From assembly GCF_003260995.1 (NCBI RefSeq), contig NZ_CP030040.1, positions 124,001 to 188,000 of the forward strand: 64,000 nt of DNA, in the 5' to 3' direction. The notes under the pieces are model-generated. The model made no database searches. It was given only the letters and a program-made list of their open reading frames with translations, and was not told the origin of the DNA. Source of the stretch: Acetobacterium sp. KB-1. GTDB taxonomy: Bacteria > Bacillota > Clostridia > Eubacteriales > Eubacteriaceae. The position numbers and the translations under genes are program-made. Below, piece after piece: positions 979 through 4,839 of the stretch (its first letter is position 1; each line of letters begins with the position of its first letter).

Positions 979-2904
979 ATGGAAAAAAATATTATTATAT
1001 TAGGCGCCGGATACGCGGGAATTCTAACGGCAAAAAAGCTTGCCAAACGTTTAAAAGATCACCAGGATATTAAAATCACCGTAATCGATAAAAAAAGTTA
1101 TCATACCATGCTTACTGAGCTTCATGAGGTAGCTGCGAATCGTGTTGAGGAAGATAGTATCCGAATCAGCTTAAACCGTATTTTTGAGGGACGAAATGTC
1201 GCTGTACAGGTTGATACGATCACTGATATCGATTATGAAAAAAAACAATTAACCGGGAAATTAAAAACCTATCCTTACGATTATCTGGTCTTAGCTTCCG
1301 GTTCTCAACCGACTTTTTTTGGGGTTGAAGGGGCCAAAGAATTTGCTTATAAACTATGGTCTTATGAAGATGCCGTAAAGCTTAAGGGACATATTCTTAA
1401 TATGTTCACAAAGGCGTTACAAGAAACGAATCAGCAGGAAAAACAGCGGTTGCTCAGTTTCTATGTGCTAGGAGCAGGCTTTACGGGTGTCGAAATGGCT
1501 GGGGAACTTGCTGAATGGGTACCGGTACTTTGTAAAGAATTTGAAATTGACCGTGAACTGGTAAAGATTACCCTAGTTGATATGATGGACAGAGTGGTAC
1601 CAAATCTATCAGAGCCGCTATCAGAAAAAGCAAAAAGGCGATTGGAAAAAATGGGCGTCACGGTCATGCTAAACACGTCGTTTAATAAAGTTGGTGAAAA
1701 TTTTATCGAGCTTAAACAGGGGAATCAGTATCAAGAATTCCCGACAAACAGCGTTGTTTGGGCAGCCGGCATCGAAAGCTCAGATATAGCTAATAAGGCA
1801 GTTGCGCTTAATCAAATTGGGCGGGGGCGGATTAAAACTGATGAATTTCTGCGGGCAGAAGGAAAAAACGACGTTTTTATTGCGGGAGATAATATTTTCT
1901 TTATTCCGGATGGTGAAACAGTGCCAGTGCCCCAGATGGTCGAAAACTGTGAACAATCAGCAGATACAGTTGCCCATAATTTAACCAGGGCAATCACAGA
2001 GGGCGGCGAAATGGAGAAGTATGCTCCTAAATTTCATGGAGTAATGGTGAGCATTGGCGGGCGTTATGGCATTTCTTATGTTGGTACAGAAAAAAAGAAG
2101 TTTGCATTGCCCTCCTTCCTGTCTCAATTTGTGAAGCATTTTATTAATATTATTTATTTTATCCAAATTTTGGGATGGAATAAGGTCTTTAGTTATATCC
2201 GACATGAATTCTTTACCATTAGAAATTGTCGTAGTTTTGTCGGTGGTCACTTTTCTAATCGTACCCCCAGTTTTTTACTGGTTCCGCTCCGCGTTTTCTT
2301 AGGTGCATTTTGGGTATATGAAGGTGTCAAAAAAGTCGATGAAGGGTGGCTTTACATGCCTAAATTGACGCCATTCTTTCAAGGTGCGAGTGATTTATTC
2401 AATGCTGTGATTAACGCTAGTGGTGGTGGTGAGGTGATATCGACGGCGACAGCGGTAGGCCAGGGAACCGAAGCCGCTGGAAGCCTGCTCATTAATTGGA
2501 ATATTTTAGGTCTTTTTAAGATTATTCTGATTCAAACAACAGATATTGCTATCAAATTGCAAGTTGGCCTCATGGATTGGTTTACCAGTACCATCATTTT
2601 AAGCAGTGAGAGTTCAGAGGTGTTTTTTCAGTCTGTAATTGTTTATTCCGAAATAATTGTCGGGATATTGCTGATTTTAGGTCTATTAACAACCGTTTCG
2701 GCACTATATTCTATTGTTCTGCAGGGCATGTTTGTCACAACGACGGGGCTTTACCTGAGTACATGGTGGATGATTTTTGCGGCGGTAGCTGTTATTATTG
2801 GTGGAGGGAGAGTATTCGGCCTTGACTATTATGTAATGCCTTGGTTAAAAGAGCACTATAAGAATATTAAGATTGTCCGGAAACTATATATCTATCATGA
2901 TTAA
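979..2904 (+). CDS. ndh2: type II NADH dehydrogenase with C-terminal membrane domain (Ndh2, EET-type)
   Basis: This 641-residue flavoprotein should oxidise NADH and pass electrons to a membrane quinone. The FAD-binding GxGxxG motif (GAGYAG) is at residues 9-14. A second dinucleotide motif (LGAGFTGVEMAGE) lies near residue 163, and an FIAGDN FAD motif lies near 300. After the usual ~400-residue Ndh core comes a DoxX-like, strongly hydrophobic extension of about 220 residues with several membrane spans. Such an extended Ndh2 is typical of the flavin-based extracellular electron transfer locus of Listeria and relatives (established knowledge). The ATG at 979 is chosen over an upstream in-frame ATG at 925 because CGGAGG lies six bases before it. 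The next gene overlaps its end. NADH dehydrogenase activity is well supported; the EET assignment is inferred from the extension and neighbours. Confidence 0.88.
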   Translation: MEKNIIILGAGYAGILTAKKLAKRLKDHQDIKITVIDKKSYHTMLTELHEVAANRVEEDSIRISLNRIFEGRNVAVQVDTITDIDYEKKQLTGKLKTYPYDYLVLASGSQPTFFGVEGAKEFAYKLWSYEDAVKLKGHILNMFTKALQETNQQEKQRLLSFYVLGAGFTGVEMAGELAEWVPVLCKEFEIDRELVKITLVDMMDRVVPNLSEPLSEKAKRRLEKMGVTVMLNTSFNKVGENFIELKQGNQYQEFPTNSVVWAAGIESSDIANKAVALNQIGRGRIKTDEFLRAEGKNDVFIAGDNIFFIPDGETVPVPQMVENCEQSADTVAHNLTRAITEGGEMEKYAPKFHGVMVSIGGRYGISYVGTEKKKFALPSFLSQFVKHFINIIYFIQILGWNKVFSYIRHEFFTIRNCRSFVGGHFSNRTPSFLLVPLRVFLGAFWVYEGVKKVDEGWLYMPKLTPFFQGASDLFNAVINASGGGEVISTATAVGQGTEAAGSLLINWNILGLFKIILIQTTDIAIKLQVGLMDWFTSTIILSSESSEVFFQSVIVYSEIIVGILLILGLLTTVSALYSIVLQGMFVTTTGLYLSTWWMIFAAVAVIIGGGRVFGLDYYVMPWLKEHYKNIKIVRKLYIYHD

Positions 2905-3871
2905 AAATGAATTAGCCGAAAGAATAGAATACCTTGCATCCCTCGAAGCAGTCAGACAATTGATAAAAGAAACTTTACTGGATACGGATGAGTTAATTTT
3001 AGAGATGATGGAACACCTGACGTCCGGAAGTGGAAAAAATTTAAGAGCGATGTTATTGCTGGCTTCAGCAATGGACCGTGATGGCTTTGTACCGCGTGAC
3101 GCAGTGATTGCTGGTGCAGCGGTAGAAATCCTTCATCTTGCCACATTGGTGCATGATGATGTCATCGATGAAGCCGAGATAAGGCGGGGACATGCCAGTT
3201 TGCAAAAACAGTTTGGAAAAAAAGAAGCCGTGATTTGTGGTGATTACCTTTTTTGTATATCGCTTGCGATGGTAGCTGAGATTTCAAATCATTATTCCCA
3301 GAAATTAAATGTGTATACCCAGGCAATGACAAAAATTTGCCTGGGAGAACTTCGCCAATTTAAACATAATTCCGATACCGAGCTCAGTGTGATGAATTAT
3401 TTAAAAATAATAGCAGGAAAAACGTCGGCACTTTTTTCGCTGGCGATGTATTCCGGTGCGATTATCAATGAATGTAGTGATAAAGAAGCGCGCTTTATGG
3501 GACGAATTGGATACAATATGGGTATGGCATTTCAGATATTGGATGATTGTGCGGATTATGAATCGGATGTTGCGGCAACTAAAAAGACGGTTAAACATGA
3601 CCTGGCCGAAGAAGTGGTAACCTTGCCGCTTATTTATGCCTTTCTTAAAAAACCGGAGCTTAAGCATCATATCCGCCGTCAGCAGCTGTCACTGGGTGAG
3701 ATTAATGAAATTATTGCCGAGGTTGTTAAGGTCGGCGGGGTATCAATGGCCCGGGATGTGGCAGAAAAATACTATCTAAAGACAAAAAAAATGATAAATA
3801 CTCTTACGGAAGATAATAAAAAGTTGTTAATGAATGAAATCCTTGGAAGAATTTGGAAAGTTGAGAATTAA
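2897..3871 (+). CDS. dmkB: polyprenyl diphosphate synthase (DmkB-like)
   Basis: A 324-residue trans-isoprenyl diphosphate synthase that would build the long isoprenoid tail of a quinone by adding isopentenyl units. Both Asp-rich motifs are present: HDDVID with the following RRGH near residue 87-97, and ILDDCADYESD near 215. The frame can also start at a TTG at 2873. I prefer the ATG at 2897, although neither has a strong ribosome site. It overlaps the end of ndh2 by 8 bases and is followed three bases later by a UbiA prenyltransferase, so the three are co-transcribed and probably translationally coupled. Housekeeping ubiC-like farnesyl or undecaprenyl roles are less likely given that partner. 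Confidence 0.85.
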   Translation: MIKNELAERIEYLASLEAVRQLIKETLLDTDELILEMMEHLTSGSGKNLRAMLLLASAMDRDGFVPRDAVIAGAAVEILHLATLVHDDVIDEAEIRRGHASLQKQFGKKEAVICGDYLFCISLAMVAEISNHYSQKLNVYTQAMTKICLGELRQFKHNSDTELSVMNYLKIIAGKTSALFSLAMYSGAIINECSDKEARFMGRIGYNMGMAFQILDDCADYESDVAATKKTVKHDLAEEVVTLPLIYAFLKKPELKHHIRRQQLSLGEINEIIAEVVKVGGVSMARDVAEKYYLKTKKMINTLTEDNKKLLMNEILGRIWKVEN

Positions 3872-3874
3872 GGG

Positions 3875-4780
3875 ATGGCAGGACGATTTCTAAAGTATGT
3901 TGAGATTCAGACAAAAATGGCCAGTGTACTTCCTTTTCTGCTCGGCTTGTCTTATGTTATCTATGCATATGGACGGTTTGATCGTTTAAATACCTTGTTG
4001 TTTTTCGCCTCAATGCTGAGCTTTGATATGGCAACAACCGCGTTAAATAACTATATTGATGTAAAAACAAATGGTAAAAAACTGGAATTCTCACAAAAGA
4101 CAGCAAAGCAGATAGTGCTGATTCTTTTGATTTTGGCAAGTTGTTTGGGTTTGGCGCTGGTATTTTATACCGGGCTCATTGTTTTGGCTATTGGGGCCTT
4201 ATGTTTTGGTGTTGGGATATTCTACACCTTTGGTCCGGTTCCAATCTCGCGGTTGCCCTTGGGCGAGATTTTTTCGGGTTTATTCATGGGCTTATTGATC
4301 CCCTTTTTAGTGGTTTATATTAATGCGCCAAAAGAGAGCTTGATCGACTACGATTTTTCGAATTGGATTCTTATCGTTTCTGTTAATGCATTGAATATGC
4401 TAAAGTTAGGCGTTGTTGCAATACCGGCGATGACCGGTATTGCAAATATTATGCTATCCAATAATACCTGTGATCTTGAAGCGGATGTTGCCGTAAACCG
4501 CTTTACCTTACCTTACTATTTAGGCGTAAAAAATGCGGTAAATCTATTTGCAGCACTTTATTATTTAGGCTATGCGTCAATTATAGTTATGGTTTTATTT
4601 AGAATTGTGCCAACTTATGGACTGATTATTGTATTTGGTTTAATCCCAGTTCAGAAAAATATTCAAATCTTTCGAAAACAACAGTCTAAATCAAGCACTT
4701 TTCCGCTGAGTGTACAAAACCTCGGGATCATGGTGATTCCGGTGATTATTAGTTTAATAGCAGGGGTGATCTTTAAATAA
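3875..4780 (+). CDS. dmkA: UbiA-family prenyltransferase (DmkA/MenA-like)
   Basis: A 301-residue polytopic membrane protein with about eight hydrophobic spans. The two UbiA Asp motifs are visible: NNYIDVKTNGK (about residue 61) and NNTCDLEADVAVNR (about residue 196). The family joins a polyprenyl tail to an aromatic acceptor. Next to a polyprenyl synthase and Ndh2 the likely acceptor is 1,4-dihydroxy-2-naphthoate, giving demethylmenaquinone, as DmkA does in Listeria. The head-group pathway is not in this window, so the product is inferred. The gene ends just before a strong terminator. Confidence 0.82.
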   Translation: MAGRFLKYVEIQTKMASVLPFLLGLSYVIYAYGRFDRLNTLLFFASMLSFDMATTALNNYIDVKTNGKKLEFSQKTAKQIVLILLILASCLGLALVFYTGLIVLAIGALCFGVGIFYTFGPVPISRLPLGEIFSGLFMGLLIPFLVVYINAPKESLIDYDFSNWILIVSVNALNMLKLGVVAIPAMTGIANIMLSNNTCDLEADVAVNRFTLPYYLGVKNAVNLFAALYYLGYASIIVMVLFRIVPTYGLIIVFGLIPVQKNIQIFRKQQSKSSTFPLSVQNLGIMVIPVIISLIAGVIFK

Positions 4781-4797
4781 ACGATCATTCACAATAA

Positions 4798-4839
4798 AAC
4801 AGAATCCATGGAACAGAATCCATGGATTCTGTTTTTTTT
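4798..4839 (+). terminator. rho-independent terminator with duplicated left arm
   Basis: The 14-base sequence AACAGAATCCATGG occurs twice in tandem (4798-4811 and 4812-4825) and is followed by its reverse complement and a T8 run. Either copy can pair, giving two mutually exclusive terminator hairpins. It ends the ndh2-dmkB-dmkA unit. Confidence 0.88.

Follow-up and report, generated by a model that had tools for sequence, protein, structure and literature searches.

Acetobacterium is known for acetogenesis, with A. woodii as its usual model, and to our knowledge the genus is usually described as quinone-free. What, then, is the role of a chromosomal unit in Acetobacterium sp. KB-1 that resembles the quinone half of an extracellular electron transfer (EET) pathway? 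The window analyzed here is a stretch of 64,000 nucleotides from a single-contig genome (3,988,268 bases, 99.99% complete). A preliminary description, made from the letters alone, had assigned its host to Acetobacterium, correctly. The unit lies at C1:124230-128780 of the chromosome and, numbered by the window, contains the following features.

230-781, + strand: gene heading the conserved unit, for a lipoprotein of an unnamed family with lipobox ...LLIAGC (Cys20)
979-2904, + strand: ndh2, for a type II NADH:quinone oxidoreductase that carries a membrane extension at its C-terminus
2897-3871, + strand: gene for a trans-polyprenyl diphosphate synthase resembling DmkB; its first 8 bases lie within ndh2
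3875-4780, + strand: ubiA, for a DmkA-like UbiA-superfamily prenyltransferase, apparently of the DHNA polyprenyltransferase type
4796-4835, + strand: intrinsic-terminator-like hairpin (17 pairs and a T run) 3′ of ubiA, from a consensus scan only

The ndh2 gene starts at 979 (MEKNIII) and stops at 2904, within a reading frame that opens at 925; the frame of the synthase gene opens at 2873, and ubiA starts 3 bases past the synthase stop. The preliminary description took ndh2, the synthase gene and ubiA to be fused, which they are not: they are separate reading frames, adjacent or overlapping. Its tight unit holds but is one gene too short, the lipoprotein gene having been missed. The consensus scan lists no terminator-like site between 781 and 979, and a promoter-like site (9-of-12 match) at 938-965, between the lipoprotein gene and ndh2. 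The scan totals are near chance (12 promoter-like sites versus 16.0 expected, 7 terminator-like sites versus 4.1 expected), so the scans settle little. We infer that the four genes, from lipoprotein to ubiA, are co-transcribed.

Pfam matches and alignments agree with the initial identification of the three enzymes. Ndh2 has a Pyr_redox_2 domain and a C-terminus resembling DoxD (23.1 bits against a cut-off of 22.7), the synthase matches polyprenyl_synt with 199 bits, and the ubiA product matches UbiA with 70 bits. Like the Ndh2 of flavin-based extracellular electron transfer (FLEET) loci, that of the window carries a C-terminal membrane extension. It can be aligned from end to end, including the membrane part, with the Ndh2 proteins of Acetoanaerobium (54% identity), Listeria (34%) and Enterococcus (33%), and also with that of Oceanobacillus; the N-terminal part of its predicted model has Foldseek matches to solved NDH-2 structures. 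The synthase is 34% identical to Listeria DmkB, and its gene adjoins ndh2 as expected of a FLEET-type dmkB.

We regard it as reasonably probable that the unit directs electrons from NADH through demethylmenaquinone to extracellular flavin and a further acceptor, using scavenged DHNA. The synthase would supply a polyprenyl diphosphate, which UbiA would couple to DHNA from neighboring microbes to yield demethylmenaquinone. Ndh2 would transfer electrons from NADH to demethylmenaquinone, or straight to scavenged DHNA. EetA and EetB, together with ApbE-flavinylated lipoproteins (PplA-like), would then hand them on to flavin outside the cell, to Fe(III) or to humic acceptors. Such export would provide an electron overflow alongside acetogenesis.

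Of the parts of the FLEET locus of Listeria, Enterococcus and Lactiplantibacillus, the genome has homologues of Ndh2 (with its membrane extension), DmkB, DmkA, EetA, EetB and ApbE/FmnB. The further EET parts, which the preliminary description had proposed to seek left of the window and genome-wide, are indeed encoded, though not to the left of the unit. The genes apbE-eetA-eetB, in that order, lie at C1:1405669-1407761, 1.28 Mb from the unit; this stretch matches PF02424 (288 bits), PF07009 (106 bits) and PF07456 (137 bits). A PplA-like FMN-binding lipoprotein, PplA being another part of the FLEET locus, is encoded at C1:1025237-1026079, 0.90 Mb from the unit; it is a distant relative, matching the PplA model NF041941 with 68.2 bits (E 6.8e-19), far under the curated cut-off of 325. 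Hence, unlike the FLEET locus, the parts occupy three chromosomal places. The system also differs in the extra lipoprotein that heads the unit, in that no DHNA pathway was found, and in its host genus, which is acetogenic and has Rnf genes (identified by eye). EetA, EetB and ApbE are also present in genomes of the genus that lack the unit: PF07456 is matched in 17/19 and the PplA-like protein found in 18/19 genus genomes, non-carriers included, while EetB was not seen in carrier G008 (81% complete). Since this back half is unlinked to the unit and kept by non-carriers, EetA, EetB and ApbE may work for Rnf or have some other role.

The source of DHNA bears directly on the proposed chain. In the window's genome, the best match to the MenD model TIGR00173 reaches 66.5 bits, where the cut-off is 244.2, and the MqnA/D family (PF02621) has no match; neither route therefore marks this organism as a de novo demethylmenaquinone maker. 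MenD exceeds the cut-off in none of the 10 carriers. PF02621 matches in carrier G003 (32.5 bits, over cut-off) and in G016 (below cut-off) both fall in ABC transporter operons, and the former is not a credible futalosine gene; carrier G005 has a fragment match of 23.7 bits, below cut-off. Cytochrome bd (PF01654), the sole oxidase looked for, is found in 0/19 genomes of the genus, which leaves aerobic quinol respiration by this enzyme, and the oxygen removal envisaged in the preliminary description, unsupported. With MenD over cut-off, a credible futalosine gene and cytochrome bd all missing from carriers, these must either obtain DHNA by scavenging or leave the quinone branch idle. We place the uptake of DHNA from neighbors in the proposed chain because no DHNA pathway was found (MenD, MqnA/D). 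The preliminary description had counted a lack of DHNA and futalosine genes, together with a lack of naphthoquinone in the lipids, against a quinone branch, and the genetic half of this is the situation for MenD over cut-off and the MqnA/D family in the window's genome. This does not decide the matter, since the pathway can be run by a DHNA auxotroph supplied from outside: Lactiplantibacillus plantarum, according to two reports (PMC8837199, PMC10746273), is without complete DHNA synthesis and operates FLEET on exogenous DHNA. Like the Acetobacterium carriers, it has the electron path but not the full synthesis of DHNA; it differs in being a lactic acid bacterium whose FLEET genes form one locus of shown activity, whereas the activity of the Acetobacterium system is predicted.

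Could the unit serve a quinone branch that involves no extracellular transfer? Ndh2 would then recycle NADH by reducing demethylmenaquinone, again made from scavenged DHNA, and a non-bd quinol oxidase, inside the cell or in its membrane, or autoxidation would reoxidize it, for instance in defense against oxygen or redox stress. We consider this unlikely, although several observations are in line with it. In the carriers read, the unit stands alone, adjoined by neither eetA/eetB nor apbE, and carrier G001 (100% complete) is the sole genus genome without the PplA-like protein. The modules are also separable, in that 26 of 40 Clostridia ndh2 loci have no ubiA within the stretch around ndh2; these 40 neighborhoods come from 35 of 82 matching genomes, are mostly best-scoring rather than random, and exclude the two Acetobacterium matches. 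Against it are the absence of cytochrome bd throughout the genus and the company kept by ndh2 elsewhere: among the 14 of the 40 loci with ubiA, 13 also have apbE and 9 eetA and/or eetB. These counts favor the proposed chain, as does the presence of at least one FLEET-type partner in 34 of the 40 loci. The gene order in the best-scoring relatives is mostly ndh2-(pps)-ubiA-eetA-eetB-lipoprotein-apbE. Acetoanaerobium noterae (ndh2-pps-ubiA-lipoprotein-apbE) and the Clostridia operons L125-L134 and L148, whose Ndh2 and UbiA are among those nearest to the window's outside the genus, share with Acetobacterium the order ndh2, pps (if present), ubiA. In most of these operons eetA-eetB, a different lipoprotein gene and apbE follow ubiA, whereas in Acetobacterium none does; there a gene of the window's lipoprotein family stands ahead of ndh2 instead, unlike in the Acetoanaerobium-type operons. 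The Acetoanaerobium, L125 and L128 operons are without eetA-eetB; in L129, as in L063, ndh2-synthase-ubiA occurs without any other parts in the stretch read, and these two loci weigh against the proposed chain.

The proposed chain also depends on the acceptor used by UbiA. The protein is 50% identical to the UbiA of an Oceanobacillus EET locus, 43% to Listeria DmkA and 24% to E. coli MenA. On tree and model evidence, it groups with the DHNA prenyltransferases of FLEET loci and appears to be of the DmkA type: the tree places it among UbiAs mostly of EET-type loci and apart from both UbiA and CyoE of E. coli (support of the Acetobacterium clade, 0.991), and DHNA polyprenyltransferase models are matched by 10/10 proteins of the alignment (5 from Acetobacterium, 5 others). 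The phylogeny, which the preliminary description had named as a check, thus does not put the protein with other acceptor groups. Together with the alignments and the ndh2 neighborhoods, these data uphold its claim that the unit and the quinone half of the Listeria-type locus are homologous. That UbiA instead takes another aromatic acceptor, so that the product is no naphthoquinone and the unit not an EET system, seems improbable to us. Such a reading would accommodate the carriers' want of MenD over cut-off or credible MqnA/D, as well as a score of 283.4 bits against the curated model, 6 bits short of its cut-off of 289; it is at odds with the nesting among EET-locus DmkA proteins, the model matches and the retention of ubiA with ndh2 in 10/10 carriers.

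The unit is polymorphic within Acetobacterium: ndh2 and the quinone genes occur in 10 of the 19 sampled genomes, one per species. This patchiness, with absences scattered across the EetA-EetB tree of the genus, and the missing DHNA genes would suit a decaying relic, non-working without a DHNA source, but we think this improbable, given that all four reading frames are open over their full length in 10/10 carriers and that Ndh2 remains 77-79% identical to the window's in two carriers with different gene surroundings. A. woodii probably lost the unit. A 2021 genome comparison (PMC7901989) notes that A. woodii is without ndh2 and argues on that ground against flavin-based EET; it also reports that A. 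woodii reduces Fe(III) and that added flavins have no effect. Fe(III) reduction in the genus, occurring there without ndh2, need not use the chain proposed here.

The lipoprotein at 230-781 has no Pfam or NCBIfam match and no cofactor motif, and is predicted to be a membrane-anchored beta-solenoid; it is at most a tentative candidate for the bactofilin family (PF04519). Its gene precedes ndh2 in 10/10 carriers; the family is missing from 0/10 carriers and 9/9 non-carriers, so that lipoprotein and UbiA are present together in ten genomes and absent together in nine. Among 393 Clostridia, Ndh2 is found in 33/37 genomes with the lipoprotein family and 49/356 without, at thresholds of our own choosing (Ndh2 E 1e-60, lipoprotein E 1e-8) and with at most 3 (Ndh2) or 8 (lipoprotein) candidates scored per genome; the Fisher tests of this co-occurrence ignore relatedness, for which the genus count is a partial control only. 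In 17 of 20 further lipoprotein neighborhoods read in other Clostridia there is no Ndh2 or UbiA, the 20 excluding the copies of Acetobacterium, G250 and G396, already known to be linked. Since the lipoprotein accompanies the unit and itself lacks a cofactor motif, it is probably a cell-surface accessory of the chain, acting as a scaffold or flavoprotein partner. Judged by sequence, the whole is a known system in split form, joined by a candidate accessory protein.

Finally, these findings suggest quinone cross-feeding to acetogens. We tentatively propose, as a possibility somewhat short of even, that flavin-based EET is ancestral in Acetobacterium, was repeatedly lost, A. woodii being one of the losers, and is fed by neighbors' DHNA, and that the lipoprotein family is a new, widespread accessory. 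If so, the loss in A. woodii would explain why the genus has been thought quinone-free. The lipoprotein family would be an accessory of Gram-positive EET, a cofactor-free beta-solenoid surface protein co-occurring with Ndh2 across Clostridia, and offers the field a new knock-out target. Acetobacterium turns up repeatedly in communities of biocathodes and electrosynthesis (PMC5566340). With ndh2 and the quinone genes in 10 of 19 genomes, it becomes possible to compare carriers directly with non-carriers, both in the presence and in the absence of DHNA.

The genome of the window is a single contig (C1) of 3,988,268 bases, on which the window spans C1:124001-188000, and the unit comprises four genes, a lipoprotein gene included:

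230-781: lipoprotein gene, 197 bases ahead of ndh2
979-2904, + strand: ndh2, from open-reading-frame reading and a protein family match
2897-3871, + strand: polyprenyl diphosphate synthase gene, overlapping ndh2 by 8 bases
3875-4780, + strand: ubiA, starting 3 bases after the synthase gene
4796-4835: hairpin of 17 pairs with a T run, 3′ of ubiA

The overlap and the short gap bear out the preliminary description of 979-4780 as a tight unit; the fusion it described does not hold, as these are separate genes. Between the lipoprotein gene and ndh2, a consensus scan gave no terminator-like site and a promoter scan one weak site (938-965). Since sites in both scans are near chance in number, we can only infer that the lipoprotein gene is co-transcribed with ndh2. 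UbiA occurs in 10 of 19 Acetobacterium genomes (hereafter, carriers) and, save for one weak partial match, in none of 21 other genomes of the family. The lipoprotein shares this set of ten genomes without exception (Fisher p 1.1e-5, kinship ignored) and occurs in 0 of the 21.

Ndh2 of this type is present in 82 of 393 Clostridia genomes (E 1e-60 or better). We read 40 ndh2 loci from 35 of these, annotated with models built from reference proteins. At least one partner typical of Listeria-type flavin-based extracellular electron transfer (FLEET; EET) lies at 34 loci, and none at six; apbE is found at 28, the synthase gene at 26, eetA and/or eetB at 23, and ubiA at 14. The best-scoring relatives mostly share one gene run, ndh2-(synthase)-ubiA-eetA-eetB-lipoprotein-apbE, which is complete with the synthase gene in loci L126, L127 and L148, lacks that gene in L130-L134, lacks eetA/eetB in L125, L128 and Acetoanaerobium L080, and consists, within the stretch read, of ndh2-synthase-ubiA in L129 and L063. 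The last of these, in the same order, is from a MAG labelled spirochaete (Spirochaetaceae MAG Nm470_bin15), outside Bacillota. The gene order of the Acetobacterium unit is that of the front half of this operon. The window Ndh2 aligns end to end, C-terminal membrane part included, with those of Acetoanaerobium noterae (54% identity), Listeria (34%) and Enterococcus raffinosus (33%). Its AlphaFold model (mean pLDDT 65, weak at the C-terminus) predicts a fold matching solved NDH-2 structures of Caldalkalibacillus and Staphylococcus over ~400 residues.

A second lipoprotein family lies between eetB or ubiA and apbE (L080:13040-14107, L125-L128, L130-L134, L148); it has two similar halves, with no credible Pfam match and no NCBIfam match in the one member scanned, and may be the PplA counterpart in Clostridia EET operons. 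The domain of the window lipoprotein also forms tandem arrays, with 2 to 4 copies listed, within longer open frames (325-902 aa; G110:C53:5869-7617, G154:C7:1230794-1232107, G132:C34:228043-228927, L210:4980-5957), which fits the expectation for a solenoid surface protein. In the plasmid collection, the records behind L081 (NZ_CP151545.1) and L079 and L080 (NZ_CP030101.1, NZ_CP154629.1) include sequences of chromosome size (2.6-2.9 Mb) that are labelled plasmids, and a Pseudomonas-labelled plasmid whose genes, by eye, resemble Gram-positive ones.

The preliminary description took the unit for the quinone half of an EET locus, with partners perhaps to its left or elsewhere in the genome. Nothing EET-like was seen left of the window; elsewhere in the genome lie:

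C1:1405669-1407761: neighbouring genes for ApbE (288 bits), EetA (NusG_II, 106 bits) and EetB (PF07456, 137 bits), 1.28 Mb from the unit
C1:1025237-1026079: PplA-like lipoprotein with an FMN-binding domain, scoring 68 bits with the PplA model against a cut-off of 325

Against Enterococcus EetA, Listeria EetB and Enterococcus ApbE the trio shows 35-43% identity, and it stands together in all 17 Acetobacterium genomes with EetB, carrier or non-carrier; EetB had no match in non-carrier G007 (83% complete) and carrier G008 (81% complete). All genomes but carrier G001 (18 of 19) have the PplA-like protein. By eye, Rnf genes (D, G, E, A) begin at ~C1:192850, just right of the window, and a lipoprotein with FMN-binding and molybdopterin-oxidoreductase-like domains lies near ABC transporter genes at L052:6354-7727 (C1:82354-83727).

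We lean towards a FLEET-type chain, its parts split over the chromosome, that would be fed by DHNA (the quinone precursor) scavenged from outside and would serve electron overflow, with the lipoprotein as a surface accessory. Sequence, gene order, homology, distribution and tested absences are the direct data, from which we infer how electrons flow, which substrates are used, that DHNA is taken up and what the lipoprotein does. The strongest counterpoints are the retention of the back half (EetA/EetB/ApbE) by species without Ndh2, the lack of a PplA-like protein in one carrier, and Fe(III) reduction by A. woodii, which has no Ndh2 (PMC7901989, in excerpt). That the quinone branch serves something other than EET is unlikely, if still worth weighing. 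The preliminary description had considered oxygen removal, and cytochrome bd was found in 0 of 19 Acetobacterium genomes.

Of the DHNA-pathway genes sought for the proposed demethylmenaquinone branch, its own genome has no MenD over cut-off (nor has any of the ten carriers) and no PF02621 match. The sole MenD match over cut-off is in non-carrier G017, which we take to be A. woodii DSM 1030, within a polysaccharide locus; this MenD-like thiamine-diphosphate enzyme (L087:10871-12634, 254 bits) lies, by eye, beside a short-chain dehydrogenase and glycosyltransferases. The PF02621 proteins of carrier G003 (over cut-off) and of G016 (weaker) are, judged by their neighbours, ABC transporter substrate-binding proteins, and a third match, in G005, is a below-cut-off fragment at a contig end. 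DHNA would therefore come from outside, if the prenyltransferase works on DHNA. Likewise, L. plantarum has an incomplete DHNA pathway and performs EET on supplied or cross-fed DHNA (excerpts of PMC8837199, PMC9888254, PMC10746273). There, DHNA-dependent EET requires ndh2 and pplA, and deletion of dmkA or dmkB has little or no effect (PMC9888254, in part), so the main electron carrier may be something other than a UbiA-made quinone.

It is improbable that UbiA prenylates another aromatic compound. Its score of 283.4 bits is under the NCBIfam cut-off of 289; DHNA polyprenyltransferase types were nevertheless the NCBIfam result for all ten proteins of one alignment (five from Acetobacterium, five from elsewhere). 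Pairwise identity of the window UbiA falls from 50% (an Oceanobacillus EET-locus protein) through 43% (Listeria DmkA) to 24% (E. coli MenA). When placed in a tree together with 27 further members of the UbiA family, the ten Acetobacterium UbiAs group as a single clade (support 0.991); the proteins around it come mostly from EET-type loci, and E. coli UbiA and CyoE lie apart. On the phylogeny, the result sides with the preliminary description.

The order lipoprotein-ndh2-synthase-ubiA is kept in 10 of 10 carriers. In G001 and G006 the block has neighbours quite unlike those in other carriers with readable flanks; the four genes thus stay together as their surroundings change. The EetA+EetB tree (17 genomes, modest supports) keeps two carriers, G001 and G006, apart from the main group and scatters the non-carriers (G017; G015 with G016; G002 with G004 and G014; G011 with G012). 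Given this scatter and the single UbiA clade, one acquisition with at least three losses is the most parsimonious account. That the unit is a relic is the least probable reading, losses in the genus notwithstanding.

At L002:13180-15193 (C1:119180-121193), left of the window and shortly before the unit, one gene resembles those of phasins (23 bits, under the cut-off) and another encodes an ABC1/UbiB-type atypical kinase (PF03109, 230 bits). UbiB relatives are tied to quinone biosynthesis elsewhere. The pair is directly ahead of the lipoprotein gene in carrier loci L045-L048 and L051, and not in G001 or G006. A multi-HAMP chemoreceptor gene stands between kinase and lipoprotein genes in the window genome (L002:15416-18040) and after ubiA in carrier loci L045-L048 and L061 (e.g. 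L045:11202-13826), a local rearrangement around the unit.

In the literature, at title and abstract level and among the matches listed, a FLEET-type system in Acetobacterium is not described. The absence of Ndh2 from G017 (E 1e-60 search) agrees with the report, in the excerpted text, that A. woodii has no ndh2, where flavin-based EET was concluded against (PMC7901989). Excerpts of a metagenome study with Acetobacterium bin OKU01 assign Ndh2, Dmk and Eet genes to other bins (PMC8921683), and an Acetobacterium electrosynthesis genome paper contains no word that starts with quinone or flavin (PMC5566340). The system is not categorically new, its chemistry being already known. Distinctive here are the absence of a detected DHNA pathway, the chromosomal split and the unexpected host, in which a candidate new accessory family, the lipoprotein, accompanies this chemistry.
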